From contig CACXMZ010000002.1 of the NCBI GenBank assembly GCA_902768975.1, positions 124,001 to 188,000 of the forward strand: a stretch of 64,000 nucleotides of DNA. The letters run 5' to 3'. The DNA is from an uncultured Coriobacteriaceae bacterium. Its GTDB lineage: Bacteria; Actinomycetota; Coriobacteriia; Coriobacteriales; Eggerthellaceae. The position numbers and the translations under genes are program-made. Positions within the stretch are counted from its first letter, which is position 1; each line of letters opens with the position of its first letter. Under the pieces are notes generated by a model. The model saw nothing but the letters and a program-made list of their open reading frames with translations, ran no database searches and had not been told where the DNA came from. Below are positions 35,975 to 59,247 of the stretch, piece by piece.

Positions 35975-36002
35975 CTACGAGTCCCATAAAACGGACTCGT
36001 AG
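35975..36002 (+). promoter_or_regulatory. Operator O1 of the WYL locus
   Basis: CTACGAGTCC-CATAAAAC-GGACTCGTAG is a perfect palindrome with 10-bp arms and an 8-base spacer, 36 bp upstream of the WYL gene start. Its core AGTCC-N8-GGACT, with spacer GTTTTATG on the other strand, recurs at 38787, 39969 and 46872. It is the longest of the four and the natural autoregulatory site. Confidence 0.75.
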
Positions 36003-36037
36003 TAAAATTTTTTCATCTACCATACGAGGTGATGAAA

Positions 36038-37201: not shown

Positions 37202-37264
37202 GTTGCACATACAAGCGGCATGATGCACCCCAGCAAGGCGCAGTTCCTGCAGAAAGGAAACACC

Positions 37265-38761: not shown

Positions 38762-38786
38762 TAACGCCAGGGGCACGCTGCTCTAC

Positions 38787-38860
38787 TATCCGTTTATTGG
38801 GACTATCGGTTAAAGCGGAATCGGTACCATTCTTTTTGTATCCAACAGGAAGGATGTACC
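38787..38860 (+). promoter_or_regulatory. Operator O2 and RBS-hiding leader hairpin
   Basis: TATCC-GTTTATTG-GGACT (38787-38804) is the WYL operator with one half-site change. After it, GGTACCATTCTT (38823-38834) pairs with AAGGATGTACC (38850-38860), an 11-bp stem with one bulge that covers the Shine-Dalgarno AGGAAGGA and ends at the ATG. The same arrangement recurs at 39969 and 46872. Confidence 0.7.
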
Positions 38861-39460
38861 ATGGAAAGGAAGCAGACCTACCGCATCGAAGCAGTTTTAG
38901 AGTTCGATGTTGTCGACGGCGAAAAGCCTGGCGGGCAAACCGCTGAAGCAGAGGCCGGCGCCGAAACCGACGGCCACAACGAGCTTGCCATCGGGACTGT
39001 TATCGACGCAGTGGCGCACAAGTTCGATGTGCCCGCCAAAGAAATCACGGACGAAAACCGGCTAAAGGCTGCTGAAGAAGCGTGCTATGCGGCTGTGTAC
39101 TTGGCCAAGCGCCTCGTTCATGCCGACCGCATGAACAAGACGAAGGCAAAAGACCCCGAAGGCTTCCTAAGCTATGGGTGGTTGGCCATGCGCGCAATTA
39201 CCCGAGACATCGACAAAGAGCTAAGCGCGGTATTCGGTGAAGACTACGGTGCGCTCTACCATTACGAAAAGCAAGCTATTCGCCTTCGCAAGGAAAACGA
39301 AGAGTTCCGCAAGAAGACGAACGACATCTGGTCAGAAATTGACGACGCCTACGAGTTGGGCACGGATTGCTCTCACGTTATCTGGCGCGACCAAATGGAA
39401 GAAGAACTTGCGCAGGAAGCAGCTCAAGCAGAAGACCTACGGAAGATGTGCCCGCAATAG
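38861..39460 (+). CDS. Stand-alone DnaA domain IV-like protein
   Basis: This 199-residue protein lines up with DnaA domain IV: IGTVIDAVAHKFDVPAKEIT, AAEEACYAAVYLAKRLV, then LSAVFGEDYGALYHYEKQAI and RLRKENEEFRKK. An insert of about 25 residues (DRMNKTKAKDPEGFLSYGWL) separates the two halves. The DnaA-box reading motif GGRDHTTV is replaced by GEDYGALY, so it should not read a normal DnaA box. The N-terminal 45 residues are acidic and of unknown fold. It heads an operator-led operon with the DnaA-like AAA+ fragment. Domain similarity is my alignment by eye. Confidence 0.6.
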   Translation: MERKQTYRIEAVLEFDVVDGEKPGGQTAEAEAGAETDGHNELAIGTVIDAVAHKFDVPAKEITDENRLKAAEEACYAAVYLAKRLVHADRMNKTKAKDPEGFLSYGWLAMRAITRDIDKELSAVFGEDYGALYHYEKQAIRLRKENEEFRKKTNDIWSEIDDAYELGTDCSHVIWRDQMEEELAQEAAQAEDLRKMCPQ

Positions 39461-39478
39461 GAAGTGGAAAGATCTACC

Positions 39479-39943
39479 ATGCCTAAAAACGAAGAAACCA
39501 GTGAAGCGGTTCTGGCCGCTGCTGAAACACCACTCCAAGGACCAAACCCGCTAGTCATCTATGGGCGTAACGAAAAGGAAAGGGCCGAGCTGCTAAGCCT
39601 CGCGGCAAAAGTGGCTACGGAGGCCTACTCTCCCGAAGTGGTTGAATACGCCGATATTGACGAACTCAAAGATGATTACACAATGGCATTGCTTAAAGGC
39701 AGCGGAGAGCATGTCGAAAGAATAGAAAAACGTTTTGAAGCAACCCTTGTTGCCATTTTTGACAATGTTCAGCTGCTCCAGCCAAGCAATGATGTTGCAA
39801 AGCTCGTTTTTCAACTGTTTTGGGAGCTTTCTGAAAACGATTGCCAGATCATTTTAGGTCTGGACACAGCACCCGAATTCACGTATTTTCCCCGGGCACA
39901 TAAGTTCTTTTTAATGCAAGGCGCAGTCTTTAAAACAGATTAG
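39479..39943 (+). CDS. Degenerate DnaA/Hda-like AAA+ fragment
   Basis: This 154-residue protein follows DnaA domain III from the Walker A strand to sensor I: GPNPLVIYGRNEKERAELLS, VAIFDNVQLLQPSNDVAKLV, then FQLFWELSENDCQIILGLDT. DnaA has NPLFLYGGTGLGKTHLL and LLIDDIQ at these places. Here the P-loop is GRNEKERA and cannot bind nucleotide in the usual way; Walker B is IFDN. The arginine finger and lid are absent. It is probably a binding partner or decoy rather than an ATPase. ATG 39479 follows GGAAAG; it is 18 bp after the domain IV gene. Confidence 0.6.
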   Translation: MPKNEETSEAVLAAAETPLQGPNPLVIYGRNEKERAELLSLAAKVATEAYSPEVVEYADIDELKDDYTMALLKGSGEHVERIEKRFEATLVAIFDNVQLLQPSNDVAKLVFQLFWELSENDCQIILGLDTAPEFTYFPRAHKFFLMQGAVFKTD

Positions 39944-39968
39944 TAACGCCAAGGGTGTACTGCTCTAC

Positions 39969-40042
39969 TGTCCGTTTATTGGGACTTGGAATAGCGGCGG
40001 AATCGGTACCATTCTTTTTGTACCCAACAGAAAGGATGTGCC
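39969..40042 (+). promoter_or_regulatory. Operator O3 and RBS-hiding leader hairpin
   Basis: GTCC-GTTTATTG-GGAC (39970-39985) is the WYL operator. GGTACCATTCTTT (40005-40017) pairs with AAAGGATGTGCC (40031-40042), which contains the ribosome binding site and ends at the ATG. The A-T pair of O2 is a G-T pair here, so the stem is kept. Confidence 0.7.
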
Positions 40043-41464
40043 ATGAAAAGTAAACAAGCGACCGCTAACCAGGCCAGCAACCCCAGCAACCCCAGCAACC
40101 ACCGCACCCCCACCAACCAAGCATTTGACAAAATCATCGGCTACGAATGGGTGAAGGACGAACTCCGCATCCTGGCCAGCATCTTGCGCAACGCAAAAGA
40201 CTACACTGCCCGCGGTTGCGAACTCCCGCACGGCATCATGTTCGAAGGCGAGCCTGGCCTTGGCAAAACACTCATGGCTGAATGTTTCATCGAAGCAAGC
40301 GGATGCAAAAGCTTTACCGTGCGCAAGACCAACATGGGCAACAACTTTTTGGAAGATCTGCAGTCTGCCTTTGACCAAGCAATTGCCTACTCCGAAAAAA
40401 CTGGCAACGTGTCTATTGTGCTCTTAGACGACTTGGATAAGTATTCTTCACTCGATGGCCCCAGGAGCACCACCGAAGAGTTTTCCGCTGTCCAAAGTTC
40501 CATGGAGCGTTGTAAAAATCTGCCTGTATTTGTAATCGCTACAGTAAATGCACCCCACCTGTTGCCGGAATCACTCCGCAGGGCAGGCCGCTTTGGCAAG
40601 AAGTTCAAAATAAGCGCTCCCAGCATGGAAGAGCAGGAAATAATCGTTGCCAAGTACGTCCATGGGTTGCAGGAAACATTCAAAGACATCAGCATAGACT
40701 CCAACATCGAATTCTTAGCAAGGCTGTTTAACGTTGAACCATTCTCTGCCATGGAAACCGCGCTCAACTACGCTGTTGCTCGCGCAATCTACCGCAAGCG
40801 CAAAAAAGTAAGCCAGAAAGACATTATCGAAGCACTCATTGGCTATTCAATTGAAGGCACAGATCGCCCCTTTGCACCCTTCTTCGAAAAACGTACTGAA
40901 CAGCGGATGCGTATTGCCATTCACGAAGCTGGACACGTGGTGGTTGCGGAGGCACTTGCACCTAAGTCGGTAGCGTATGCAGCAATCGTGCACCACGACA
41001 CTGGCCTGGGCGGTAGCACAAGTCATGGCCTCGCGCGCGGAGGCATGAACCCTATAGACGCTGAACGTATGCGCATCATGGTTGGTCTTGGCGGTGCTGT
41101 TGCGACAGAGCGCGAGTTGGGCATAACAGACGGTGGTTTCGCTAACGATTTAATGAAGGTGGTGGGCATTGCCGAATCCCTGGTAACCCGTTTGGGCGCA
41201 TATGGCGTGCGCAACGCTGCTGAATATATGAGCCGCAATCAGGAAGACAATGCCGTAGCGCATTACCAGGATGCAGAAATTGCGATGTGTCGTGAAAAGA
41301 CCATGGCCATCCTGGCAGAAAATCGCGAATTCTTGCTGGAAGTGGCAAGCATTATTTACGAAAAGGGCCTGGCTACCTACAGCGACATCCAGAAGGCCAA
41401 GATGTGCCTGTACCGCAATGCCAACCCCAACGCAGACGCTTTTACCACCTACGACGTGGCTTAA
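40043..41464 (+). CDS. Soluble FtsH-like AAA+ metalloprotease
   Basis: This 473-residue protein has an FtsH-type AAA module with intact Walker A (GEPGLGKT, about residue 68) and Walker B (IVLLDDLDK), then an M41 peptidase domain with HEAGH (about residue 294) and the third zinc ligand Asp in GGFANDLMK. The N-terminal 30 residues are rich in Asn, Ser, Pro and Thr and there is no transmembrane segment, unlike FtsH (about 600-650 residues). It should be a cytosolic ATP-driven protease, the one fully active ATPase in this locus by motif. A built-in proteolytic effector or regulator of the neighbouring DnaA-like proteins is an inference. Confidence 0.8.
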   Translation: MKSKQATANQASNPSNPSNHRTPTNQAFDKIIGYEWVKDELRILASILRNAKDYTARGCELPHGIMFEGEPGLGKTLMAECFIEASGCKSFTVRKTNMGNNFLEDLQSAFDQAIAYSEKTGNVSIVLLDDLDKYSSLDGPRSTTEEFSAVQSSMERCKNLPVFVIATVNAPHLLPESLRRAGRFGKKFKISAPSMEEQEIIVAKYVHGLQETFKDISIDSNIEFLARLFNVEPFSAMETALNYAVARAIYRKRKKVSQKDIIEALIGYSIEGTDRPFAPFFEKRTEQRMRIAIHEAGHVVVAEALAPKSVAYAAIVHHDTGLGGSTSHGLARGGMNPIDAERMRIMVGLGGAVATERELGITDGGFANDLMKVVGIAESLVTRLGAYGVRNAAEYMSRNQEDNAVAHYQDAEIAMCREKTMAILAENREFLLEVASIIYEKGLATYSDIQKAKMCLYRNANPNADAFTTYDVA

Positions 41465-41497
41465 CGTGTGTATGCGTATATATTTGGAAGGAAAACA

Positions 41498-42706
41498 ATG
41501 TTTGAAATCAAAGGAATTTACGAAACAGCGAAGTGTTACGCCATCAACATCGAAGAGAACGCCATTGAACAAATTCGCGCGATGTGCGATCAGCCTTTCA
41601 CTAAGGATGCCAATGTGGTTATCATGCCCGACGCACATGCGGGAATCGGCTGCACCATCGGCACCACCATGAAGGTAGTCGATGCCGTCGTACCCAACAT
41701 TGTGGGCGTAGATATAGGTTGCGGTATGTATACGATTGACCTTGGGAAGGGCAACATTAGCCTACCCGCCTTGGATGACGCATGCCACACGGTACCTAGC
41801 GGCAAGCATGTATGGGAAGGGCGTCGCGAGCGCTTCGACTTGCAAGAGCTGCGTTGCTATCGACACCTACGTGACGCCAAGCGCATTGAGCGCAGTATTG
41901 GTACGCTGGGCGGCGGCAATCATTTCATCGAGATAGATGTTGCAGACGACGGGACGCAGTACCTGGTCATTCATAGTGGCAGCCGTAACCTGGGCAAGCA
42001 AGTGGCTGAGTACTACCAAGCATTGGCGGTAGACCTGCACAGTGGCAAGGAGGAGTACTTCGTTGCACGTGACGCGCTGATTGCAAAATATAAGGAAGCT
42101 GGGCGCCGCTCTGAAATCCAGACAGCGCTGAAGGATTTGGCTACACGCTTTGAAGCGAAGGAACCCGACGCACCGGCAGAACTATGCTGGCTGTATGGTA
42201 GCTACCTGGATGACTATCTGCACGACATTGCCGTCTGCCAGCGCTTCGCAAAACAGAACCGCGAATCTATAGCACGCGAGGTCCTGCAGCTGACAGGCCT
42301 GGACGGCCATGACGCTTTTCATACGGTGCACAACTATATCGATACTAATGAAATGGTGTTGCGCAAGGGTGCCATCGCTGCACATGAAGACGAGATAGTG
42401 CTCATCCCGCTGAACATGCGCGACGGCAGCGTATTGGCACGCGGCAAGGGCAACGCCGAGTGGAACAACTCAGCACCCCACGGAGCAGGACGCTTAATGT
42501 CACGCCTTGTTGCAAAAGAAACGTTGTCAATGGATGACTATCGCGCGCAGATGGAGGGTATCTATACCACCAGCGTGTCTGAGCGCACCCTCGACGAGGC
42601 TCCTGATGCATATAAGGCGGCGGACGACATCATGGGCGTTATTTCGGATGCCGTGGACGTACAAGACGTTTTGCGCCCTATCTACAACTTCAAAGCGCAG
42701 AACTAA
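41498..42706 (+). CDS. rtcB: RtcB-family RNA ligase
   Basis: This 402-residue protein has the RtcB motifs: MPDAHAGIGCTIGTT, VGVDIGCGMYT, GGGNHFIE, HSGSRNLGK and the guanylated histidine region NNSAPHGAGRLMSR (His about 328). RtcB joins RNA ends with 2',3'-cyclic phosphate or 3'-phosphate to 5'-OH ends, using GTP and manganese. No archease (its usual activator) is adjacent. In this locus it could repair RNA, for instance tRNA cut by toxins. ATG 41498 follows GGAAGG; upstream starts lack a site. Confidence 0.85.
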   Translation: MFEIKGIYETAKCYAINIEENAIEQIRAMCDQPFTKDANVVIMPDAHAGIGCTIGTTMKVVDAVVPNIVGVDIGCGMYTIDLGKGNISLPALDDACHTVPSGKHVWEGRRERFDLQELRCYRHLRDAKRIERSIGTLGGGNHFIEIDVADDGTQYLVIHSGSRNLGKQVAEYYQALAVDLHSGKEEYFVARDALIAKYKEAGRRSEIQTALKDLATRFEAKEPDAPAELCWLYGSYLDDYLHDIAVCQRFAKQNRESIAREVLQLTGLDGHDAFHTVHNYIDTNEMVLRKGAIAAHEDEIVLIPLNMRDGSVLARGKGNAEWNNSAPHGAGRLMSRLVAKETLSMDDYRAQMEGIYTTSVSERTLDEAPDAYKAADDIMGVISDAVDVQDVLRPIYNFKAQN

Positions 42707-42727: not shown

Positions 42728-43693
42728 ATGAACACACAGCGCACACCTACACTCTTTTCCACGTCTAAAAACAGGACGCGCAAAATGCAGTCCATTGATA
42801 CCGCACTCGAAATGGCGTTTGCAGAAATTACGAGCGTGTGTGAGCAGGGACCCACTATTCTGGGCGCACCAACTGGTTATAAGGCCCTCGACCGCATACT
42901 GTGCGGCATCCGCCCAGGCGAAATAACCCACGCTGCTGCCACAACCCTAGAAATCGGCACAGCATTCCTCTACAACGTGGCGCTCAACGCTGCAAAAGCC
43001 GGGGAACAAGTGCTGTTCCTTACGCTTAACGCCAGCACGCAGCTTGCGGCGGAATACCTCCTGAGCGTTGAAAGCAGTATTAGTCTTGAACGCCTGCACC
43101 TGGGCAAACTCACGGAAGACGACTGGGACGCACTTTCGCAGGCTACTAATTGGCTCAACCAGCTGGACATCCAGTTTTTTGACTACCCCATGCTAACCAC
43201 AACAGAACTCATGGAGCTTCTGCGGGAAGCAATCAACGAAGGGCCACGCCGCCCGCTCATTGTTGTTGAAAGCGACGACTTTGCTATGCCTTACCTTTCG
43301 GGCGAGCACGCTTACAGAACACGCGAGCCCCTCTACGGCTTTTTGGCATTTGCGCGCGCTAAAGGAGTTTCGGTTTTGTTGGGCGACTTATTGCCAGACA
43401 GGGAAGGCTACTCGTACACCAACTATTACTTCGACAAGATGTGTTGCGCTGGTTCAATACTAAAGATTGACGAAGGTGTTCCTACTGCAGAAGGCGCGCA
43501 TGAAACTATTACGGTTGATGTTATTAAGAACAGCCATGGGCCTAAAGGGAGTGTTGTTCTGCTTTATAACCCTGCTACGCACGCCATAAAAAGCCGCTAC
43601 AACGTGGCGGAAGACGGCGACTATGAGGACATTAGCTATGAAGAGCTCAAAAAGATGTTTGAGGAAGAAAATAGCACGAGCAAGAAACAATAG
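42728..43693 (+). CDS. DnaB-like RecA-fold protein lacking a P-loop
   Basis: This 321-residue protein follows the DnaB helicase C-terminal domain: GAPTGYKALDRILCGIRPGE, AAKAGEQVLFLTLNASTQLA, then KLTEDDWDALSQATNWLNQL. DnaB has AARPSMGKT after the first block; here it is AAATTLEIGTA, without the P-loop lysine. Walker B is VVESDD rather than MIDY. The N-terminal helicase domain is absent. The last 22 residues (EDISYEELKKMFEEENSTSK) are almost those of the protein at 49824, also at DNA level. GTGAGAAAAGGTAACC precedes the ATG. Likely a non-hydrolysing DnaB mimic. Confidence 0.7.
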   Translation: MNTQRTPTLFSTSKNRTRKMQSIDTALEMAFAEITSVCEQGPTILGAPTGYKALDRILCGIRPGEITHAAATTLEIGTAFLYNVALNAAKAGEQVLFLTLNASTQLAAEYLLSVESSISLERLHLGKLTEDDWDALSQATNWLNQLDIQFFDYPMLTTTELMELLREAINEGPRRPLIVVESDDFAMPYLSGEHAYRTREPLYGFLAFARAKGVSVLLGDLLPDREGYSYTNYYFDKMCCAGSILKIDEGVPTAEGAHETITVDVIKNSHGPKGSVVLLYNPATHAIKSRYNVAEDGDYEDISYEELKKMFEEENSTSKKQ

Positions 43694-43813
43694 GGGCAAG
43701 CTGCTGCCAAATAATATCGTTCTAAAAGCATTACAATTATGAACAAAACCGCTTGTTACTTGGATAATGGTACCTATGAAAGAAAAGCTCGTCGAAGCGT
43801 GAAAGGAGTAACA

Positions 43814-44563
43814 ATGGAACTAGTAACTTCAGAACAATTCACTAAGCTTGAACAAGAAATTCGCGACCATCTTGATGAAGCACGAGAAGACAGAGAAGAG
43901 CTAAAAGACGGCTGGCCTTCGGAGCTGCTTTTCCTTTGCGACGTCTGGGCAGAAATGCAGGAGCTTTTTTTCGAAAACGGCATCACGGATGACTTCGTTT
44001 TCAAAAAAGTACCGGGCAAATCCGGCAGCACACCCCCAACAATTGAAGATTACAACGAAGAAAAAGTTACGGCATTTGGGCAGCTCATTGGCGATTTGAT
44101 TATTGCAATTAATCCCGCAATGTATGCAAGCCCAAATCCAGAACAGCCATTTTCTGATGTTCTTAAGTTCAAGAACAGAGAACAATTCATATTTCAGACA
44201 TTGCCACCGCTAGACCAATGGAAACAGGGGTGGAAAGTTAACGCTCGGGGCGAATGGAAAATGTGGACCTATCGCTTTAACGATGACGTATGGTTTGAGC
44301 TGTACGAGGAAGATCCCGAGGACGATGGCAATATGCGCTATTTTGCACAGCTTTGCGTTCCTAAGGAGCCCATAACAATGAAAGGCACAACGGCAAGGAA
44401 CTGGTTCCTGCTGGGATATGCCGACACGGAAACAGAGCGCTTTATTAACAAAGAATCGGAAAAGTACTATCACACTTATCCGTTAATGCCGTGCACAACT
44501 GCATACGATGCCTGGCTCATGGCCTTGGACTACTGGCAGGGCATTGCATATAGGTATTTGTAA
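43814..44563 (+). CDS. Protein of unknown family in the WYL locus
   Basis: This 249-residue soluble acidic protein reads MELVTSEQFTKLEQEIRDHL at its helical N-terminus. The second half is rich in aromatic residues (WKVNARGEWKMWTYRFNDDV, RNWFLLGYADTETERF). I recognise no domain. AAAGGAGTAACA precedes ATG 43814. The leader contains AAAAGCTCGTCGAAGCG (43782-43798), the same 17 bases found at the end of the DUF2779 gene at 38733-38749, so part of that region was copied here. It lies between two genes of the WYL locus on the same strand. Confidence 0.6.
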   Translation: MELVTSEQFTKLEQEIRDHLDEAREDREELKDGWPSELLFLCDVWAEMQELFFENGITDDFVFKKVPGKSGSTPPTIEDYNEEKVTAFGQLIGDLIIAINPAMYASPNPEQPFSDVLKFKNREQFIFQTLPPLDQWKQGWKVNARGEWKMWTYRFNDDVWFELYEEDPEDDGNMRYFAQLCVPKEPITMKGTTARNWFLLGYADTETERFINKESEKYYHTYPLMPCTTAYDAWLMALDYWQGIAYRYL

Positions 44564-44606: not shown

Positions 44607-45773
44607 ATGGACATAGCCACTAGTGACAATACCCTGACGCGCATTGAACAATTGCTTGAAGCTTTTGCTCAAGCAGAGTTTTCTACAAGCTCTCATGAAA
44701 CAACCTTCATGGAGGCCTTGGGCGTTAGTAGTAAAGAGGTGCCTGTTTCATCGCTGCTTGCCTTCTTATTGGATCCAAATGAAAGCCATGGGTTGGGAAC
44801 CCTCTGGATAGATGCCCTTGTTGCCGCATACGCATCCCGTTTGGATAGAGAAGTTATAGTCGACGCAGTAGAAAATGTTGAGACAGAAGAATCAACAGGA
44901 AACAGAAAGCGCATTGATATTGTTATCGAAACTGGTAACCGAATTATTGCAATAGAGAACAAAATATATGCTGGACTTAACAATCCACTCGGAGACTATA
45001 AAAAATATATTGAGAAGGAAACGACCGAGCGAGGGAAAGAAGAAAGCCCAATTCTTATCGTTCTCTCATTGTTTCCGCTAACGCCAGATGATAAGGACTT
45101 TGCAAATATTACCTATGAGCAACTCTTTGCAGAAGTCCGCAAACGCCTTGGTGACCACTTCTCTGCAGATAAGGCGCATTGGACAATTTATATAGATGGA
45201 TTCATGAAATCGATAAGTAATTTGGAGAACACCATGGCTTTTAATCCCGAATATGACGAATTGTTATCGAAGCACTATGAAGCTGCTTTCGATTTCATTT
45301 TGTGGCGCAAAACCTATATTAAAGAAACGAAGGCAGAATTGTGCCGAATAATAGATGCGATTGATTTTGTTGACGAAGGGCTTTTGGCCGAAGGTGATTA
45401 TAAAGTTTTTGCTTGGAACAGCAGTTATTATTACTGCTGTTATTGCATAGACATCAATCTACCGCTAGACCATATTATTGCGATTGAGAACAATAAGAGC
45501 GTGCTGACGGTAGAAACCTGGCGTACGAAAAGGGATGGCTGGGTTATTACTCTGTTTGTCCGAAGCGGTGGCGACAGTGCAGCAAGTTTGATTGGTAAAT
45601 TGCTCGATAAAGCGGGCATCAAGTGGCAAATCGCGAAGTACTACGGTAAAGAAGAAAGACGTTATCTAGAAGTTGAGCACCTTGATTACGAAGCTGATGA
45701 CAGCGCTGTTCGTGATGCTATTCGTCGAGCAGTTTCTTATGCAAAGAAGGTCATAACGGTCGGTTGTGAATAG
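44607..45773 (+). CDS. PD-(D/E)XK nuclease family protein
   Basis: This 388-residue protein has a PD-(D/E)XK core, RIDIVIETGNRIIAIENKIY (Asp, then Glu-Asn-Lys; residues about 99-118), preceded by LLAFLLDPNESHGLGTLWID, the usual start of the PDDEXK_4 family. The C-terminal 180 residues contain aromatic and charged blocks of unknown fold. The family is common in defence islands, where members cut DNA or are its targeting parts. AAAGGAGCG precedes ATG 44607. It ends 82 bp before a lipoprotein gene. Confidence 0.75.
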   Translation: MDIATSDNTLTRIEQLLEAFAQAEFSTSSHETTFMEALGVSSKEVPVSSLLAFLLDPNESHGLGTLWIDALVAAYASRLDREVIVDAVENVETEESTGNRKRIDIVIETGNRIIAIENKIYAGLNNPLGDYKKYIEKETTERGKEESPILIVLSLFPLTPDDKDFANITYEQLFAEVRKRLGDHFSADKAHWTIYIDGFMKSISNLENTMAFNPEYDELLSKHYEAAFDFILWRKTYIKETKAELCRIIDAIDFVDEGLLAEGDYKVFAWNSSYYYCCYCIDINLPLDHIIAIENNKSVLTVETWRTKRDGWVITLFVRSGGDSAASLIGKLLDKAGIKWQIAKYYGKEERRYLEVEHLDYEADDSAVRDAIRRAVSYAKKVITVGCE

Positions 45774-46642: not shown

Positions 46643-46873
46643 AGCAAGGACTTCTCTCTGCTTACACTTGCAGCTGCCACGCCAACTTCCACGATAGACC
46701 TTGTCGGAGTGGTCTTGAAGCGCGCTTATCCAAGGCCCTGCTCCTCTTGTGCCAAGGCAATTACTGCTACTGCCAAGTTATTGCAAGAGCGTTGGAGTTA
46801 TGCCAGCTCTACTGCTACTTACGTTGCATTAGGAATGGCGTTCAACCCCGTAGATGCAAGTGCTCTTTTTTAG
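46643..46873 (+). other. Gene-poor stretch with a possible gene stub
   Basis: Between 46534 and 46948 no convincing gene is present. One frame without a start codon reads SKDFSLLTLAAATPTSTIDL, VGVVLKRAYPRPCSSCAKAI and TATAKLLQERWSYASSTATY before ending at the WYL operator. It could be a decayed gene tail. I give it little weight. Confidence 0.25.
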
Positions 46874-46948
46874 TCCGTTTATTAGGACTCTGAACAAAAT
46901 CAAAATCGGTAACATCCTTCTTGTGCCTGACGGGAAGGATGTTGACCT
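46872..46948 (+). promoter_or_regulatory. Operator O4 and RBS-hiding leader hairpin
   Basis: AGTCC-GTTTATTA-GGACT (46872-46889) is a perfect WYL operator. GGTAACATCCTTC (46908-46920) pairs with GAAGGATGTTGACC (46934-46947), 13 pairs with one bulge, covering the RBS and ending next to the ATG. Compared with O2 and O3, both arms changed together (ACATCC with GGATGT), which supports a real RNA stem. Confidence 0.75.
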
Positions 46949-47494
46949 ATGGGAAAGTCTTGGCGAAGCGAAGCAAACCTAGAATGCGACCTTGTAGAGG
47001 ATCCGCATGCAGACGAAAGCCAGCCGCGATGGGAAGCACACGACAGATTCCTTAAAGTTGCTCAAGCTTATTTCTGGGACTGGATCGTAAATTTCTATAA
47101 CGCTGCCCTCACGGGTGGGTTTGAAGTTAAAAGCGAACGAGACACGCTTGTAAACCCATTCGAACACTACGCTTCTTTCAAGCTAAAGGACGGCAGCGAA
47201 TACTACGCTACTCGCCCCTTCCATGTGCATTTCAAATTAGTTGTCCATCCAAGCAGTGTGGACAAAGAAGATCTAAAGAACTTAAAGCTTTGCTTCAAGA
47301 CAATACGATTTGAAGGCATGGAGTTCAGCGGCGAAGGCGACCTTATTGGCTATATCAAGCAGCTCCTTGGGGTGGCAGCATGGTGCAAATCCATCCAACG
47401 TCACAAAATTACTGGCCGGCGTGCATCTAGCCCTTGGGAGCCCAAACCCAACTGGCACAAACATCTACAGGCAAGCTCTAACAAAAACAAGTAA
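46949..47494 (+). CDS. Protein of unknown family, first gene after O4
   Basis: This 181-residue basic protein includes FLKVAQAYFWDWIVNFYNAA, HYASFKLKDGSEYYATRPFH and VHFKLVVHPSSVDKEDLKNL. The C-terminus is rich in Trp, Lys and His (ASSPWEPKPNWHKHLQASSN). No domain recognised. It is translated from the hairpin leader O4 and lies 11 bp upstream of the FtsK-DnaA fusion gene, so the two and the following gene form one operon. Confidence 0.6.
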   Translation: MGKSWRSEANLECDLVEDPHADESQPRWEAHDRFLKVAQAYFWDWIVNFYNAALTGGFEVKSERDTLVNPFEHYASFKLKDGSEYYATRPFHVHFKLVVHPSSVDKEDLKNLKLCFKTIRFEGMEFSGEGDLIGYIKQLLGVAAWCKSIQRHKITGRRASSPWEPKPNWHKHLQASSNKNK

Positions 47495-47505
47495 TAGGAG
47501 GAGCC

Positions 47506-49833
47506 ATGACCATTTTGAAATCATTTAGCGACCATCAAAACAATGAAGTGCAAAGTGATGTCGCGAAGCTCCAGGACGCGCTACAGGAAATGGATGCCCA
47601 CACCGCAGACCTAATTAATGAAGCCCTGAGGGACTTCAATATTGACGCTTCGGTGGTCGACTGGATTCATGGTCCTACGGTTACGCTTTTCAAGCTAGAC
47701 ATAGCACCGGGCGTACGCGTAAGCAAAATCGAAAACTTTACAGACGATCTTGCACGCACCCTTACAGCACCAAGCATCCGCATGCTGTGCCCTGTTCCTG
47801 GCACCAAATACGTTGGGCTTGAGGTTCCACATATCAAGGAATACAACCAGATACCGCTACTGCAAAATACGCTCGCTAACCGACCAGAGGGGCTCATGCA
47901 GATTCCTATCGGTATAGATGTGAATGGCGACACCGTATTCGACGACCTTACAGAAATGCCCCACCTTATTATTGGTGGCGGTCCTGGGTCTGGTACAGGC
48001 GTGTTCATTGAAGGTATGCTCTATGCGCTTCTCAGCCATAAAGAATCTGCAAATATCGAACTCATCCTCATCGACCCACTGCGTGTGAACTTTACTGTTT
48101 ACAAAGACATCCCGCATTTAATCGCTCCTGTTATTGTAAACCCAGAAGATGCAGCACGGGCACTATCGTGGGCAGCAAATGAAATGGAACGCCGCCTCAA
48201 GGCGCTTGCGTCAGCCGGCGTGCGCACTATAGAGCAATACAACAACTATGTTGTTGACGAGATGGTGGCAAAGGAAAACTCTGGTGAAGAAACAGATGCA
48301 GGCATTGACCGGCTAACCCATATAGTTATTGCTATCAATGATTTAGCCAATCTTATGTTGTCGCAGGGCCCAGCGAGTCTTATAGAGCAGTCAATCGCAC
48401 GCATTGCCCTACTGGGGAAGGCAGCAGGCATTCATCTGATACTGTCAACAGCAAAACTGGGGACAAGCGTGCTCACGGGGCCTATGAAGGCAAACATCCC
48501 ACATCGAATTGCATTTGGAACAACGGGCAGTCTCGAAAGCCGTGTCATCCTTGACACCGCGGGCGCAGAAAAACTAGTTGGTAACGGAGACTTGCTTTAT
48601 AGCAAACCTGATTATCCCAAGCCTGTCCGCTTGCAAGGCTTCTTTATATCTCGCAATGAAACAAAACAGCTAACGGGCGCCCTGCGGGAAGAACATGGAC
48701 CGCGCTATAGGGACGAAATACTGCAAACTGAAATCCCTGAAATAAAACCCTTAAAAAATTTTGAGAAAGAACCTGAACCAGAAGAAGACCCTCTTCTTTG
48801 GCATGCTGCAAAGCTGGTTGTAGATACTGGATTAGGATCTTACGCTAATATCCAACGACATTTGCAGGTGGGCTACTCACGTGCCAATCGCATAATAGAT
48901 TCATTGGAAAAACTAGGTGTAGTAGGCCCTCCTAATGAATCCCGACCGCGTGATGTGCTTATAGATGCAACTGAACTTGATGAGCTCCGCACGAAAATGC
49001 TATTTGAGCAAGTAAGTCCAAAAGCCTCCGCCACAGAAAAGCAGACGTTTAAAAATTTCATTGTGGGTCCATCAAATTATATGGCTTATGCTATGGCGCG
49101 CTGTGTTGCAGAAAACCCTGGCGAACCATTTTTAAATCCTGTGTTTATCTACGGTCCTCCGTCGTGCGGCAAAACACATCTTTTGTGCGCAATCAAAAAC
49201 TACGTGGCTACACATAAGCCCGACCAAAAGGTTATCTCCTTAGATGCAAATGACTTCGTAGCAGACTATTGCAACGCAGCTTTGAGGGGCGGAGACAATA
49301 AAAAGGAATTTAAAGAAAAGTATTTGCAAGCTAGCATCCTTATGATTAGCAATGTTCAGATGCTCCAAGGAATGAATGAGACCCTTTCGATACTCTTTCA
49401 AATATTGCGTATCCTGGTTGACCAAGGATGCCAGGTGGTATTTACGGCAGATAGGCGGCCATGGCATATAGATATCGATAAACGCTACACGGCGCGATTC
49501 GTCTCGGGCATTATTTGCCCAATTCAACCACCAGAGTATGAGGTACGTCTTAGTTTTGCTAACCAGTACATAAAAGTTCTTAGGCATAAGCTAGCCGAAG
49601 TTTCTAAGCATGACTGGCATATTCAGCCAGAAGTTTGCCACGCTATAGCGGGTCGTCTAACAAATATGGCGTACATAAAAGGGGCGCTCGGTATGTTTGC
49701 CTTCCAAGCAGCAAAAAGGGGAGATAGCTACCTTACGATGCCCTACGTTAATAAGGTGCTTAGCGAATTCCCTCAAGCTCATGCCACTTCTGAACCATCC
49801 AACAATACTGCTAGAGGTACGTCATGGACATAA
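47506..49833 (+). CDS. FtsK motor-gamma region fused to DnaA AAA+ domain
   Basis: This 775-residue protein joins two families. Residues 40-400 follow the FtsK/SpoIIIE core: VVDWIHGPTVTLFKLDIAPG, MPHLIIGGGPGSGTGVFIEG, ANIPHRIAFGTTGSLESRVI, GNGDLLYSKPDYPKPVRLQG. The P-loop lysine is a threonine (GPGSGTG), and Walker B is AINDLAN instead of VIDELAD. Residues 428-495 match FtsK gamma (GSYANIQRHLQVGYSRANRI). Residues 510-765 match DnaA domain III: FKNFIVGPSNYMAYAMARCV, FIYGPPSCGKTHLL with an intact P-loop, but Walker B LMISNVQ instead of LLIDDIQ and no sensor 2 arginine. AGGAGGAG precedes the ATG. By motif it may bind but not turn over ATP. Confidence 0.75.
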   Translation: MTILKSFSDHQNNEVQSDVAKLQDALQEMDAHTADLINEALRDFNIDASVVDWIHGPTVTLFKLDIAPGVRVSKIENFTDDLARTLTAPSIRMLCPVPGTKYVGLEVPHIKEYNQIPLLQNTLANRPEGLMQIPIGIDVNGDTVFDDLTEMPHLIIGGGPGSGTGVFIEGMLYALLSHKESANIELILIDPLRVNFTVYKDIPHLIAPVIVNPEDAARALSWAANEMERRLKALASAGVRTIEQYNNYVVDEMVAKENSGEETDAGIDRLTHIVIAINDLANLMLSQGPASLIEQSIARIALLGKAAGIHLILSTAKLGTSVLTGPMKANIPHRIAFGTTGSLESRVILDTAGAEKLVGNGDLLYSKPDYPKPVRLQGFFISRNETKQLTGALREEHGPRYRDEILQTEIPEIKPLKNFEKEPEPEEDPLLWHAAKLVVDTGLGSYANIQRHLQVGYSRANRIIDSLEKLGVVGPPNESRPRDVLIDATELDELRTKMLFEQVSPKASATEKQTFKNFIVGPSNYMAYAMARCVAENPGEPFLNPVFIYGPPSCGKTHLLCAIKNYVATHKPDQKVISLDANDFVADYCNAALRGGDNKKEFKEKYLQASILMISNVQMLQGMNETLSILFQILRILVDQGCQVVFTADRRPWHIDIDKRYTARFVSGIICPIQPPEYEVRLSFANQYIKVLRHKLAEVSKHDWHIQPEVCHAIAGRLTNMAYIKGALGMFAFQAAKRGDSYLTMPYVNKVLSEFPQAHATSEPSNNTARGTSWT

Positions 49834-51077
49834 GCAAAGACAACATTGACCAAGTCTGGGAGCAAGTAGCTACGCGGCTAAAAAGCGAGTATCCCAAAGA
49901 TGCCTTGTCTTTTGATTCAATCTTTGCCCATGTCAGTCCTGTTTACAACAACGACGGTGCTGTCACTCTAGTCGCTGACACACTATCGTTCAAAAAATGG
50001 ATCGAACTGAACTATCTTGCTTCTATTAGCGACGTCTTCTGCAGCGTATGCAACGATTACGTAAAGGTTAGGGTGTCTAGCATTCCAAGCTGCGAAACCA
50101 TTCCTATAGACCGAGGCCTTGAATTTGCCTTTAGTGAAATCGTAGTAAGGACGCAGCCAAGCCCGAAGACCCAGACAGTCGGCATTTCCACCAGTCTTAA
50201 AGACCTTGACGAATCAACAGGGGGCCTGCGGAACGGACAGCTGGCTGTTCTTTCTGGCAGGGCATACACACAAGAGTTCGCCATTAACCTTGCCATTACC
50301 GCAGCAAAAAATGGAGTACGCGTTTACTACTTCAGTATGAGCCGCAGCCTCCCAATAATTGCGCAGTCCTTTTTATACCTAGAAGCAGGCATTGCGAGTT
50401 ACAGAATGGCGTCTGGCCATTTGCGCGAAGTCGACTGGCAATATCTTGCCGACACAACAGGCTATCTTTCCAAGCTCGATATCAACTTCATTGATTCCCC
50501 TTGTGTTACCTGCGAAGAAATCGAAAACACAGTAGCGCTTGCACGCAAAGGGAAAAAGGACGTTCTTGTTGTAGTTGACCAGATTGACCAAATGGACGCC
50601 CCAGACGAGCTGCGCCAAAAAGACCGCAAACAACAAATTGCGGGAATCGTGCAGGGGCTTCAAAAGGCCGCTGTGTCGATGGACGTTCCCGTACTTGCAT
50701 TGTCCAGCATTGCGCGCGCCCATCAATATGAAAGCCAGCGCCCCAGGATTGAAGACATGGAATATGCAGACCCTATTCGCTTATATGCCGACGTAGTTAT
50801 GCTTCTTGATATGTGCCTGGGTTCTATTGAAGAAGAAATGGATAGCAGACCCGCCATAGACGAAGCTTGGGTCTACCTTGACAAAAACAGGAACCAAGCC
50901 CATGGGTGGATTGGGCACAGATTAGGCTTCGATAGAGCTATCGGAACCTTCTATGACTACGTCTCTAGAGACAAATCGGCGAACCCACGGGAAGAAGAGC
51001 AATGGGAAGACATCTCCTACGAAGAGCTCAAAAAGATGTTTAAGGAAGAAAATAGCACGAGCAAGAAAAACAAATAG
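49824..51077 (+). CDS. DnaA domain I fused to DnaB-like RecA-fold domain
   Basis: This 417-residue protein starts with a DnaA domain I: IDQVWEQVATRLKSEYPKDA, TLVADTLSFKKWIELNYLAS, ISDVFCSVCNDYVKV. Residues 115-395 follow the DnaB C-terminal domain: VGISTSLKDLDESTGGLRNG, GVRVYYFSMSRSLPIIAQSF, VLVVVDQIDQMDAPDELRQK. The P-loop is SGRAYTQEF in place of ARPSMGKT. In bacteria, DnaA domain I binds DnaB, DiaA and other partners; here the two are one chain. The tail EDISYEELKKMFKEENSTSK nearly repeats that of 42728. It overlaps the FtsK-DnaA gene by 10 bp. Confidence 0.7.
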   Translation: MDISKDNIDQVWEQVATRLKSEYPKDALSFDSIFAHVSPVYNNDGAVTLVADTLSFKKWIELNYLASISDVFCSVCNDYVKVRVSSIPSCETIPIDRGLEFAFSEIVVRTQPSPKTQTVGISTSLKDLDESTGGLRNGQLAVLSGRAYTQEFAINLAITAAKNGVRVYYFSMSRSLPIIAQSFLYLEAGIASYRMASGHLREVDWQYLADTTGYLSKLDINFIDSPCVTCEEIENTVALARKGKKDVLVVVDQIDQMDAPDELRQKDRKQQIAGIVQGLQKAAVSMDVPVLALSSIARAHQYESQRPRIEDMEYADPIRLYADVVMLLDMCLGSIEEEMDSRPAIDEAWVYLDKNRNQAHGWIGHRLGFDRAIGTFYDYVSRDKSANPREEEQWEDISYEELKKMFKEENSTSKKNK

Positions 51078-53603: not shown

Positions 53604-53817
53604 GACAACCTCCTTTGACGATTCGACGAGATCACTTATCTCCTTCTGGTTATATAACTGGACAAAAAGGACGTTTTTAAGCGATAGGTAATAAAAAATT
53701 TTGATTTTTTTATTCTTGAAACGATAAGATATGATTCTGTAGCACTAAAGAGCCCGTCAGGGCGCTTGTAACAACAGTACGAAGCAATAGAACAGCTTTA
53801 GAATAAGGTCGTTGCTC

Positions 53818-54429
53818 ATGAAAAAGTTTTTTCTGGTTACATCGCATCTTCCTGAAGATAAGCTTGTCGAGCATTCTTATGAACCTGTCGACAATGCAAA
53901 TCTTGTTTATGGAAATGTACACTTTCCTATAGTACCCCTCATTAATGCTCATGTTAAAAATGGTGATGCTATTAAAGTGGTGACGGTTACCTACGACACT
54001 CCTAATTGCCATAGGAATCTAAAATTGCTAGAAAGCGAAATCAGTCAGGTTTGCGCAGAAAACAATGCGACATATGAGCTCGAATCAATCGAAGTACCCT
54101 TCGATGACAGCATTAAAGCTATCCTCAATGTTTATCAGCAACTCATTACTCGCGTTGAAGACGGCGATGATCTTTACGCTGACATTACATATGGTTCTAA
54201 GCCCATGCCAATTGTGCTTACCATGGCACTCCAATACGCATATCGTATAAAAGAAAACGTGTCTATTGAGTGCGTAATCTATGGGCAAATTAGCCATCAT
54301 AAGGAAACCCAAGATGCGAAAATCTATGATGTCACGGCGCTTGTACAACTCGACGAGATAGTAAACCTCATGGCTGAAGGGCGTGTTGCTGACCCAGCGA
54401 CTGTTATAAATCTATTGCTTGGTGATTAG
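53818..54429 (+). CDS. CARF-like sensor domain protein (TM1812/Csx2-like)
   Basis: This 203-residue protein resembles the CARF domains of the TM1812/Csx2 group: an N-terminal MKKFFLVTSHLPEDKLVEHS strand and loop, and the key block DLYADITYGSKPMPIVLTMA then LQYAYRIKENVSIECVIYGQ. In TM1812-like proteins the corresponding block is DITHGFRSLP. CARF domains bind cyclic oligoadenylates; some also cut them. No effector domain is attached and no CRISPR array or type III genes are in the window. It is followed 8 bp on by a sigma-like gene. ATG 53818 follows AAGG. Confidence 0.6.
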   Translation: MKKFFLVTSHLPEDKLVEHSYEPVDNANLVYGNVHFPIVPLINAHVKNGDAIKVVTVTYDTPNCHRNLKLLESEISQVCAENNATYELESIEVPFDDSIKAILNVYQQLITRVEDGDDLYADITYGSKPMPIVLTMALQYAYRIKENVSIECVIYGQISHHKETQDAKIYDVTALVQLDEIVNLMAEGRVADPATVINLLLGD

Positions 54430-54437
54430 GGTTGGGT

Positions 54438-55598
54438 ATGGAGGCATTTCAACCTTCAAATAAAGACTCAAGAGGCAGGAGAAAGACCTCGCCTCACGCA
54501 GACGAGTTCTACTCGCGACATATTCACTCTTTGAAAGACCCTGCCTTAGAAGCTGAAATAAACAGAATTGCTGAACGATTAAGCGGCGCCCGATCCTCTC
54601 AATCTACCGCAAATGAGCTTGCCTTAAAGGAGAAGCTTTATGCTAAGTGTATGAAGTTCTTTTTCATTACGGGTCAAAATGTGAGCATCGATTTCGAAGA
54701 CGCATCGCATTATGGTAGTTACACCAAGATTGATGATATTTTTATTGAAGCTTTAAAAGAGACTATAGACCACTACGATGCCTCTGAGGGTAATGAGAGG
54801 TCATTCACGCACATGGTCCGTTTCTACTACGACAAAAGAAAAATCGACGCAGCATATTTGGCCGCTGAGGAAGACTCGGCATTTGGAGGAAGCGATACAG
54901 GTGCATTAATTAGTCTAAATGACCAAGTTAGAAGGAATGATGACGGCTCTACAACACTGGAAGACCTCGTACCATCCCCAGATAATGATGGAGACTATGG
55001 TGCTCCGCTTGATCAAACGTGGGTAGAAATAGATGAGCGGGAGATAGTAGGCGTAGCTGATGCGTTAGAAGAAACTGCTTTGATAGAAGATTTCTCTACC
55101 GATGACGCATCTGGGTACGCTGCAGATAGAGTCGATGAAAGAATACTTCTGCGATTGCTTACTATTATTACTGGCTTTCTCGGGAAATCTGGGCGAGAAG
55201 CAAATGAGACGAGAAAACTGTATACAAAAATGTTTTTCTCCGAGACAGTAACACGAACGACAAAGGTTAGGGTCGAGGGCGAACTTGCACCACTGCAGAA
55301 ACTTGAAAAGGCGCTATTTGCTTCGATTGAACTGCCTTTTCAGGACTCTTATACGGTACTGAGATGCAGGACTATTAAGCAGCTGTGGAAAACCGAATTC
55401 ATTGATGGGATAAGCGAAGTGGGTCGGCCGTTCAACGATATTGCGTCAAAAAGTGATTTGGCGCCGGGCTATAGCTGGACGTTGCCAGGGAAAGCGTATA
55501 TTTCATACCTCAATTCGATCGGACGCGCTGCTTCAGACGCACTGGTTTCTCAACAACGTGCTAGATATGATGAGTTGCTACGGGCTCTTAGGTCCTAA
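54438..55598 (+). CDS. Divergent sigma-factor-like protein
   Basis: This 386-residue protein has a region reminiscent of sigma-70 region 2 and linker: IDDIFIEALKETIDHYDASE, GNERSFTHMVRFYYDKRKID, then LISLNDQVRRNDDGSTTLED, like the SLD...GxxxLED element of sigma factors. The C-terminal 100 residues (FNDIASKSDLAPGYSWTLPG, KAYISYLNSIGRAASDALVS) may be a degenerate DNA-binding region. It may redirect RNA polymerase or mimic a sigma factor. The assignment rests on pattern only. It is the second gene of a three-gene group with the CARF-like gene. Confidence 0.45.
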   Translation: MEAFQPSNKDSRGRRKTSPHADEFYSRHIHSLKDPALEAEINRIAERLSGARSSQSTANELALKEKLYAKCMKFFFITGQNVSIDFEDASHYGSYTKIDDIFIEALKETIDHYDASEGNERSFTHMVRFYYDKRKIDAAYLAAEEDSAFGGSDTGALISLNDQVRRNDDGSTTLEDLVPSPDNDGDYGAPLDQTWVEIDEREIVGVADALEETALIEDFSTDDASGYAADRVDERILLRLLTIITGFLGKSGREANETRKLYTKMFFSETVTRTTKVRVEGELAPLQKLEKALFASIELPFQDSYTVLRCRTIKQLWKTEFIDGISEVGRPFNDIASKSDLAPGYSWTLPGKAYISYLNSIGRAASDALVSQQRARYDELLRALRS

Positions 55599-55727
55599 TT
55601 ACATGGCAAACAATCTTTCGTTCCCACAGAAAGACGTTAAAATACTATTGGTTCGTATAATATAGGTCTGCAATACGCCTTGTGTTAAAAAGCTCCTACG
55701 TGTAATTATCATGCAGAAGAGGTTTAT

Positions 55728-56213
55728 ATGAATAAAGAAGAACTTATCAGCGTTGCGTCAGATGTTGTTTGTGATCTCGAGAGTGCGGCTTCAGGAATTC
55801 AAGATGCAATCTGGGATCTAGAATCAATCGAATACGAAATAGACACAGTTGAAGAAGATGACGACGATTTCTCCGAAGAGATAGCAGATTCGCAAAGGGC
55901 TGCCAATACCCTTGATAGCGTAGCATCTGGACTCGGAAATGTGGTGTCATCAGTTGAAAATGCAATAACTGCGCTATGCACAGCCGAGCAATCGTTCCTG
56001 CCGCTCGACTCAGCCAACATTGGCATTTTCCATGGACGATTGATTAACCCTGCAGCACGTCATGCACTTAACGCTTCGCTAAGAATATGTGAGATGGAAA
56101 TCAGATTAGGCGAATACGAATCCGCATTAAAGACGTTAGAACGTGCAGAGATTAGCTTCAAACATGTAGTTGAAGAAATGCGGAGTGTGGTGTCTTCGGG
56201 CATGGCGGAGTAG
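55728..56213 (+). CDS. Acidic helical protein of unknown family
   Basis: This 161-residue, strongly acidic, all-helical protein (ESAASGIQDAIWDLESIEYE, IDTVEEDDDDFSEEIADSQR, then ALNASLRICEMEIRLGEYES) has a C-terminal half like one TPR-type helix pair. No catalytic motif. GAAGAGG lies before the ATG, and GTATAAT at 55655-55661 is a possible -10 box, so it may have its own promoter. Its place between the CARF/sigma pair and ssp genes suggests an accessory role. Confidence 0.5.
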   Translation: MNKEELISVASDVVCDLESAASGIQDAIWDLESIEYEIDTVEEDDDDFSEEIADSQRAANTLDSVASGLGNVVSSVENAITALCTAEQSFLPLDSANIGIFHGRLINPAARHALNASLRICEMEIRLGEYESALKTLERAEISFKHVVEEMRSVVSSGMAE

Positions 56214-56471
56214 GGCAATTATAGGTGTGGCTATCGTCTATTTTTCTAGGCTCTCAATTGGTTTGCCAACGGAATAATTGACAAGGCCTTAAGGCGAAAG
56301 CACTAATCTCAACTTTTAACAAAGCAGCCTAAGTGTTGACGCAATGTGGTAAATACTCGCCATAAAATAGTTTTAATAGAGTACATGAAGCATTTGCATA
56401 GTTGTTTTGAGAAGCGAAAAAAATATAGCCGATATATTCCGTTTATGCGCTACATACATAAGCTGGGTAGC

Positions 56472-56499
56472 TTGATATGACTGAAATAATTGCTATACT
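56472..56499 (+). promoter_or_regulatory. Promoter of the ssp operon
   Basis: TTGATA (56472-56477) and TATACT (56494-56499) are 16 bp apart, and TGC before the -10 makes it extended. Transcription would begin near 56506 and leave a leader of about 110 bases before sspD. The rest of the 404-bp gap (56214-56617) is A+T-rich and holds no gene I can see. Confidence 0.6.
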
Positions 56500-56561
56500 T
56501 GGGATTCTGGTTAACCACATCCAATGTCTCTAAAGCTTCTATTCAATCTATTTGATACAAT

Positions 56562-56624
56562 AATACAAAGTTCTGGAAGTCAACATCCAATGTTTCAAGG
56601 AAGCGAATTATTGAACTTTGTATT
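56562..56624 (+). promoter_or_regulatory. Inverted repeat enclosing the sspD start
   Basis: AATACAAAGTTC (56562-56573) and GAACTTTGTATT (56613-56624) are 12-bp perfect arms. The TTG start codon of sspD (56618) lies in the right arm and the RBS AAGGAAG in the loop. ACATCCAATGT also occurs twice nearby (56517, 56584). If the RNA folds so, the start codon is closed. Confidence 0.55.
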
Positions 56625-58336
56625 GCACGAAATGTAATCGAGAAACGGACAGTACGATATGTCCCGAATGCGGCGGGGAAACAACAGACGCTGCCCCTCA
56701 CGCTGTATATTGGTGTGACACTTGCAATATTCCGCTCATTAGCACTCCTGGAAAAACAAAGATAACATGCCCTGCTTGCGGTGAAGAGGCACGCTACCTT
56801 TGCGCAGATCTGCGCCCGGTCTTTCCCGAAGAACGCCTCTTGTTTGAAATAATGACGGATAGGCCTCTTTGCTACTTACATGATTCCGTGTGGGCGGTAA
56901 GCAGTAGATATTATGTTAACGGTAAACCGCACAATGTCTCCGTTGCTGAAATAACTGCTTTGAATCCGCAGGACGTAAGGAGCAAGCTTAAAGCTTACTC
57001 CTCGCAAAACAGCGACACCGACTTTCTCTGCTATATCAATGCGTTTGTTAAGGCAAATACTCCTCATTTAAACGGTCTAATAAGTGAGGCTTGTAGCTTC
57101 ATAATCGAAGCGTCTAGAGGGTATTCGGAAGAGAATATTGTTGTTTCTTTTTCAGGCGGTAAAGACTCGACCGTTACTGCAGACTTAGCTGTCCGAGCGT
57201 TGAGCAACCCTTACCTCGTACACATATTTGGAGATACAACGCTTGAATTTCCAAGCACTACCCAATATGCAAAACGATTTAGGGAAAGTCATCCACTTGC
57301 AATTTTTAAAACAGCGCGTAACAACGAACAGTCTTTTTACGATATGGCAGATGAAATTGGTCCTCCGTCAAGGGTAATGAGATGGTGCTGCTCCATGTTT
57401 AAAACAGGGCCTATTTCAAGAGCATTTAAAAGTCTGTACGGCGATCAACCCATCCTGACCTTCTACGGTATTAGGAGGGGCGAATCTATTTCGCGCAGTA
57501 AGTACAATCGGATTGAAGACAATGCAGAGGCGGTAAAAATACAGCGACAAAGAGTTGCTTCACCTATTTTCAACTGGGGTGATATTGATGTATGGCTCTA
57601 TATCCTGGCGGAAGGCATAGACTTCAATGATGCCTATAGGCTTGGCTACGAGCGCGTGGGCTGCTGGTGTTGCCCAAATAACAATCCCCGTGCCCAATTT
57701 CTTTCGCAGATATATATGCCAGAAGAGTCAGAGAAGTGGCACAACTTTCTTCTTGAGTTTGCAAAACGGATAGGCAAACCTGATCCCGAAGTATACGTTG
57801 ATACAGGAAAGTGGAAAGCACGTCAGGGCGGCAATGGCGTAGCAGCCGCTCGCAGCGTACAAATAGAAGCGAGCCACTGTGCAACCGAAGATAACGCAAT
57901 GATCTTTTCTCTCGAACGACCTTTCTCGGACGAGCTTGTTGGCCTATTTACGCCCATTGGAGACCATGCTCCTGGCCTGGGACGCACACTTCTTGAAGAA
58001 AGCGTCTTTATCGATAGAAAAACTAACGAGCCTCTACTGGCCATTATGCCTTTTACCCAGCCAGGCTATGAATATGCTGCAAAAGTGCGAATACTCAAAG
58101 AAGGCGACTCGGAGACCCTTCTGCGACAGGCGAGATACCAGGTGTTGAAATATAACGCCTGTCGCCAATGCTTGAAGTGTGAGTCCCTCTGTCGCTTTGG
58201 AGCGATTTCGATTTCGCCCGACGGATATCGCATAGACCCGTTGAAGTGTACCAAGTGCAAACAGTGCGTCACGGACAAGTACCTAGAAGGTGGCTGTTTG
58301 ATGAGAAAGTATTTGAAGACGAAGGACGAGCAGTAA
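56618..58336 (+). CDS. sspD: SspD-like PAPS-reductase-family ATP pyrophosphatase
   Basis: This 572-residue protein has N-terminal zinc ribbons (YCTKCNRETDSTICPECGGE, then WCDTCN and CPACGEE), a PAPS-reductase-type PP-loop domain with SFSGGKDSTVTADLAVRAL (about residue 178), RWCCSMFKTGPI and GCWCCPNNN. The C-terminal ferredoxin domain has CRQCLKCESLCRFG and CTKCKQC. SspD activates the DNA phosphate path for sulfur insertion with SspA in single-strand phosphorothioation. The extra ribbon and ferredoxin ends add metal sites beyond the core. TTG 56618 is the only in-frame start. sspB follows without a gap. Confidence 0.8.
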   Translation: MYCTKCNRETDSTICPECGGETTDAAPHAVYWCDTCNIPLISTPGKTKITCPACGEEARYLCADLRPVFPEERLLFEIMTDRPLCYLHDSVWAVSSRYYVNGKPHNVSVAEITALNPQDVRSKLKAYSSQNSDTDFLCYINAFVKANTPHLNGLISEACSFIIEASRGYSEENIVVSFSGGKDSTVTADLAVRALSNPYLVHIFGDTTLEFPSTTQYAKRFRESHPLAIFKTARNNEQSFYDMADEIGPPSRVMRWCCSMFKTGPISRAFKSLYGDQPILTFYGIRRGESISRSKYNRIEDNAEAVKIQRQRVASPIFNWGDIDVWLYILAEGIDFNDAYRLGYERVGCWCCPNNNPRAQFLSQIYMPEESEKWHNFLLEFAKRIGKPDPEVYVDTGKWKARQGGNGVAAARSVQIEASHCATEDNAMIFSLERPFSDELVGLFTPIGDHAPGLGRTLLEESVFIDRKTNEPLLAIMPFTQPGYEYAAKVRILKEGDSETLLRQARYQVLKYNACRQCLKCESLCRFGAISISPDGYRIDPLKCTKCKQCVTDKYLEGGCLMRKYLKTKDEQ

Positions 58337-59239: not shown

Positions 59240-59247
59240 GAGGACGT

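Follow-up and report, generated by a model that had tools for sequence, protein, structure and literature searches.

Pseudoenzyme paralogues in general are well known. The described proteins closest to those reported here are the FtsK/SpoIIIE translocases, where the γ domain of FtsK binds KOPS and activates XerD; the initiator DnaA; Hda, a paralogue of DnaA domain III that has no domain IV, which exerts its effect on DnaA by binding it and uses an N-terminal clamp motif to contact the sliding clamp; and the DnaB helicase. In the window, by which we mean the whole 64,000-nucleotide stretch analysed here, the open reading frame P0001 (47506–49833, plus strand) encodes a 775-aa protein that shares with FtsK of E. 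coli and P. aeruginosa (PDB 2IUS, 2IUU and 2VE8) the α–β–γ domain order and homology over 450 residues, and with DnaA (PDB 2Z4R and 8BTG) the AAA+ fold, the Walker A motif and the box VII arginine. Unlike FtsK, P0001 lacks a membrane segment, the P-loop lysine and the Walker B acids, and is fused to DnaA sequence. Unlike DnaA, its chain has no domains I, II or IV and has lost Walker B and sensor 2, domain I being found on the neighbouring DnaB-like protein P0002. The DnaA part, also without domain IV, has the layout of Hda but is joined to FtsK and resembles Hda weakly (TIGR03420, E = 4e-12). The RecA domain of DnaB is carried by P0002 and by a protein encoded at 42728–43693 (plus strand), both of which, in contrast to DnaB, lack the DnaB N-domain and the P-loop; P0002 has DnaA domain I instead.

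The genes around these proteins also have described counterparts. An FtsH-like AAA+ protein matches models of IetA from the anti-phage system IetAS (an AAA+ ATPase with a protease) at E = 5e-14 through the general AAA+ domain, but carries its metalloprotease in the same chain, and a scan of the neighbouring open reading frames gave no match to a subtilisin-like partner such as that of IetAS. As in WYL-regulated defence genes and RtcB RNA-repair operons, a WYL gene and an RtcB gene lie here beside nuclease-like genes.

P0001 is an uninterrupted fusion with altered catalytic motifs in both halves

A single uninterrupted frame in P0001 encodes the FtsK α, β and γ domains and, after them, DnaA domain III. 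Its four Pfam matches, to FtsK_alpha (residues 25–109, 2.1e-23), FtsK_SpoIIIE (125–318, 7.4e-36), FtsK_gamma (426–486, 1.3e-20) and Bac_DnaA (511–671, 5.7e-40), are all far above cut-off; residues 33–485 align with solved FtsK structures (phmmer, 8e-89) and residues 505–698 with solved DnaA. The protein starts just before the α domain, with no N-terminal membrane anchor, and DnaA domain IV is absent from the chain as judged by Pfam and by the TIGR00362 match, which ends at position 340 of 437. AlphaFold run without an alignment gave a pLDDT of 36 for P0001 and likewise 36 for the protein encoded immediately upstream, at 46949, values too low for either model to be interpreted.

Motif losses were judged by alignment with the FtsK and DnaA that the genome encodes elsewhere. 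In the FtsK half, Walker A changes from GGTTGSGKS to GGGPGSGTG, with loss of the P-loop Lys/Ser, and Walker B from IDELAD to INDLAN, with loss of the acidic pair. The initial annotation, made from the sequence without database searches, had singled out GPGSGTG in place of a GK(S/T) P-loop and NDLAN in place of the Walker B DE, and the comparison with the host FtsK bears out both; it had missed a further change in a downstream motif, from ATQRPS to STAKLG. The DnaA half keeps Walker A (GPPSCGKTH) and the box VII arginine (SRF/ARF), whereas the IDD of Walker B in the host DnaA is ISN in P0001 and the sensor 2 sequence NIREL is NMAYI, so that the arginine is lost, again as the initial annotation had read these motifs. 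The γ domain, whose winged helix it had described as kept, is the best-preserved part of the protein, retaining 33 of 40 family-invariant positions.

The Pfam matches and own-gene alignments thus agree with the description of P0001 as an FtsK–DnaA fusion, and the phrase 'altered catalytic residues' is correct for it. Selective inactivation, however, has no statistical backing. Within the FtsK β domain, ATP-motif positions are kept at 11 of 22 sites compared with 85 of 136 elsewhere, a difference that is not significant (Fisher p = 0.35), and we therefore rejected a loss specific to the ATP site. Because the losses in this domain spread beyond that site, the loss of function may have come about as constraint on the motor relaxed and other surfaces were retained. 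In the DnaA half, a retained Walker A with a lost Walker B fits an ATP-bound, non-hydrolysing state. The proposal of a protein that binds DNA, and perhaps also ATP, without pumping is consistent with the lost FtsK motifs, the retained γ domain and a DnaA Walker A that is kept although Walker B is gone. The initial annotation had also named two findings that would count against it, a frameshift joining two genes and homologues with intact motifs; P0001 is a single open frame that needs no frame change, and no such fusion, intact or otherwise, was found in the other family genomes (138 searched).

P0001 belongs to a set of dead replication-protein derivatives

P0002 (49824–51077, plus strand) shares its first 10 bp with the end of P0001 and joins DnaA domain I (Pfam DnaA_N, 7.9e-9) to a DnaB RecA domain (DnaB_C, 4.8e-33) that lacks the GKT P-loop. 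The protein encoded at 42728 is a second dead DnaB RecA-domain paralogue, with the same GKT lost. The two share a C-terminal tail, EDISYEELKKMFxEENSTSKK, which is absent from true DnaB, and the DNA encoding it is 84% identical over 79 nt (43609–43687 and 50990–51068); this acidic/lysine tail may be a degradation or docking tag. At 39464–39943 (plus strand; Bac_DnaA 5.1e-10, hhalign 1.2e-13) lies a paralogue of DnaA domain III in which both Walker motifs, A and B, are missing. It directly follows a gene at 38861–39460 (plus strand) whose product is similar to DnaA domain IV over the first half of that domain. The match of this last protein is weak (Pfam E = 0.0018 for the protein alone); a five-member profile compared with a DnaA profile gave E = 1.2e-4 at a probability of 55%, and it is likely to be a DnaA-IV-like protein. 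The cluster therefore holds five dead or degenerate derivatives of replication proteins, the weak DnaA-IV-like one included, which the initial annotation had missed as a set. Catalytic motifs are lost in four ATPase paralogues, namely P0001, P0002 and the 42728 and 39464 proteins.

Amid these dead paralogues, three companion proteins keep their catalytic residues: a soluble FtsH-like AAA+ M41 metalloprotease (40043–41464), whose catalytic motifs are kept in all five aligned relatives; an RtcB RNA ligase with intact motifs (41468–42706); and a PDDEXK_4 nuclease-like protein (44607–45773; PADLOC PDC-S26) in which the catalytic D..ExK is present. All cluster genes mentioned here lie on the plus strand. 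The first is a WYL/WCX-domain transcriptional regulator (36029–37201) with a weak Pfam match and with homologous WYL genes beside the FtsH-like gene in other genomes. It is followed by a DUF2779 protein with Cas4-like and RNase H-like exonuclease regions (37220–38761), apparently also an intact enzyme, which is 65% identical to the product of a gene adjoining a DnaA-IV-like gene in genome G081. A 274-aa protein of no assigned family (43739–44563) has a relative in G013 that forms a domain of a WYL fusion protein (L144:6977–8653, plus strand). The 181-aa protein at 46949–47494, which ends 11 bp upstream of P0001, has no Pfam match and a partial relative only in the genus-mate G002.

Several other features of the window were recorded. 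The convergent neighbour of P0002 (51089–51736, minus strand) is TIR/ThsB-like and has a membrane segment at its C terminus. The region 53812–63995 encodes a TM1812-like CRISPR-associated protein, a BrxP/DndC-like PAPS reductase and a cysteine desulfurase, together with proteins of 300 and 1196 aa that have no NCBIfam match; the region, which adjoins the cluster, has the appearance of a defence locus of the BREX or phosphorothioation type. Short open reading frames at 5980–6309, 23825–24052 and 25582–25824 carry leader-like ELSDEELDKVSGGG-type (double-glycine/Nif11-like) motifs and are possible precursors of peptide natural products. The gene at 10438–21537 (minus strand) encodes a secreted protein of 3699 aa that is built of MBG-like repeats and has a membrane segment at its C terminus.

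Three gene groups share a leader and a palindrome

A repeat search revealed an 84-nt leader, composed of a palindrome and a predicted hairpin over the Shine-Dalgarno sequence, in three copies on the plus strand. The first (38785–38868) precedes the DnaA-IV-like and DnaA-III-like genes (38861–39464), the second (39967–40050) precedes the genes from 40043 onward (FtsH-like, RtcB and dead DnaB), and the third (46870–46953) precedes the 46949–47506–49824 group. In each group the predicted hairpin covers the Shine-Dalgarno sequence of the first gene, with energies of −25.9, −23.7 and −30.2 and z-scores of −2.8, −1.8 and −4.6 for copies 1–3; covariation in the hairpin is uninformative with three sequences. 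The palindrome occurs at four sites in the window at ≤3 mismatches, compared with none in 100 shuffles, and the site outside the leaders (35980–35997, minus strand) is a candidate operator upstream of the WYL gene. A covariance model located the leader at exactly three places in this genome and at none in a further 137 genomes of the family. P0001 is thus a member of a cluster-specific leader group that also comprises the dead DnaA-III, DnaA-IV-like, FtsH-like and RtcB proteins and the DnaA-I–DnaB fusion. A hairpin at the ribosome-binding site, as predicted here, suits genes that are tightly repressed and potentially toxic. The regulator that binds the palindrome may be other than the WYL gene product. 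DnaA boxes and KOPS occur at chance level in the window, and an origin-like function of the locus was rejected on this ground.

The dead copies derive from the family's own genes and have been preserved

Intact ftsK (C5), dnaA (C2:232485) and dnaB (C9:37080) genes are present elsewhere in the same genome, whose gene content points to a coriobacterium. Identity at codon positions 1, 2 and 3 is 61/75/30% between P0001 and the host FtsK. Comparisons of the cluster's copies with the host DnaA and the host DnaB give 48/66/31% and 46/58/36%, respectively, and the third position is poorly conserved in the other dead copies too. Neutral drift to equal divergence gave on average ∼8 in-frame stops per segment. 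This expectation and the codon-position asymmetry indicate that the dead copies have most likely been kept by selection as proteins; past selection at the protein level is the most likely reading of these substitution patterns.

The FtsK part of P0001 is 50–52% identical to FtsK of its own genus, 48–50% to that of other family members and 43% to FtsK from outside the family. Its branch is 2.6 substitutions per site long, whereas FtsK orthologues of the family differ by tenths, and its exact attachment point in the tree has weak support. At the level of sequence, these comparisons identify P0001 as a fusion, still preserved, that was built from paralogues of the chromosomal ftsK and dnaA genes of the family and is missing the residues on which catalysis depends. 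No close homologues of P0001 or P0002 were found in the genome contigs, viral contigs and plasmids searched; phage matches listed for P0002 were rejected as relatives, being ordinary DnaB helicases. The fusion itself was seen in only one draft genome among the 138 family genomes searched, and was not found in the near-identical genus-mate G004 (81% complete).

Parts of the surrounding cluster are more widespread. Within the order, clear members of the soluble FtsH-like family occur in G031, G121, G066, G081, G324 and G433, with a fragment in G162. WYL genes lie beside the FtsH-like gene in G031, G066, G433 and G324 (a fragment in G081), and RtcB in G031, G121, G081 and G433, the RtcB proteins of G081 and G433 being 67% and 65% identical to that of the window. 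DnaA-IV-like proteins are encoded directly upstream of FtsH-like or DUF2779 genes in G081 and G162. The core that recurs in a few other genomes is therefore WYL, soluble FtsH, RtcB and DnaA-IV-like. Near the FtsH-like gene of G324, an open reading frame (L084:5903–7072, minus strand) has a Walker-less match to the FtsK motor that exceeds 400 shuffles (E = 7.7e-5) and also matches EccCb (E = 7e-4); the likeness of its neighbour (L084:7625–9127, minus strand) to FtsK/EccC motors is not significant. This G324 frame is an independent hint, and a lead, that dead motors may recur in such loci.

Discussion

The dead proteins are most likely non-catalytic mimics. Four ATPase-derived proteins without catalytic motifs, the retention of interaction parts (γ, DnaA domain I and Walker A) and an apparent double repression argue for binding over catalysis, and we infer that these proteins act by binding. 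We see about an even chance that the locus is a WYL-controlled defence or dormancy module in which shuffled dead host proteins (FtsK–DnaA, DnaA–DnaB, DnaA and DnaB) serve as poison subunits or phage baits, accompanied by dedicated FtsH-like and RtcB proteins. The leader and operator would be relieved when the WYL protein senses a ligand and the hairpin over the ribosome-binding site is opened, and the dead subunits would then enter or block host complexes. The FtsK-like part of P0001 might occupy KOPS or FtsK hexamers, its ATP-locked DnaA-III part would target DnaA assemblies, and the DnaA-I–DnaB part, P0002, would target helicase loading. Replication and segregation would stall in a reversible arrest, for example under phage attack, after which the co-expressed FtsH-like protease could clear the inhibitors and RtcB could mend cut RNA on recovery. 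Dominant-negative arrest of this kind is our favoured reading, at somewhat less than even probability, because poison subunits fit the tight control best.

Nothing decisive separates arrest from the reading in which the dead copies bait phage proteins that hijack or inhibit FtsK, DnaA or DnaB. On that reading, a bait that is engaged or cleaved would trigger the FtsH-like protease or the nucleases. The set mimics host replication machinery, derives from the lineage's own genes and evolves very fast, nuclease, TIR and BREX-like genes surround the cluster, and guarding and decoy strategies are an established part of bacterial defence generally (PMC12409349). However, a bait is needed before infection, whereas these genes seem to carry an operator, and a hairpin is predicted to cover their ribosome-binding sites; moreover, we found no replication-protein decoys or mimics of this kind, and no account of a system that contains dead replication proteins, in the open-access literature. 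We consider the bait reading somewhat less probable than arrest.

It is more doubtful still that P0001 and P0002 tune replication initiation, or couple it to segregation of the terminus, in the manner of Hda. The Hda layout of the DnaA part, with its weak TIGR03420 match, and the retention of ATP-binding residues and the γ domain would suit such a regulator, but the fusion was not found in the other family genomes, including the near-identical G004, and it lies among defence-type genes. Local duplication of the leaders and of the DnaB tail, and the lack of close relatives, could alternatively mark the remnant of a mobile element's replication or transfer module, or decaying duplicates heading for loss. 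This is improbable given frames that remain intact where drift would have left stops, the strong codon-position asymmetry, the closest match of P0001 being chromosomal ftsK from its own genus, and searches of viral contigs and plasmids that yielded no related phage or plasmid sequence. An assembly chimera or frameshift artefact, conceivable in a single draft genome of 10 contigs, is highly improbable in view of parts that diverge by 48–66% from the host genes at the protein level, overlapping genes, leaders common to three units and a frame that needs no change.

A co-regulated set of dead, re-spliced initiation, helicase and translocase proteins is of a kind that we did not find described in the open-access literature. 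The common leader offers a handle on the switching of WYL-linked modules, which may take place at the level of translation. Other genomes to examine are those in which the WYL, soluble FtsH, RtcB and DnaA-IV-like core recurs. If the dead proteins are baits, they would point to phage proteins that attack FtsK, DnaA and DnaB; as poison subunits, they would be natural dominant-negative inhibitors of these same three proteins.
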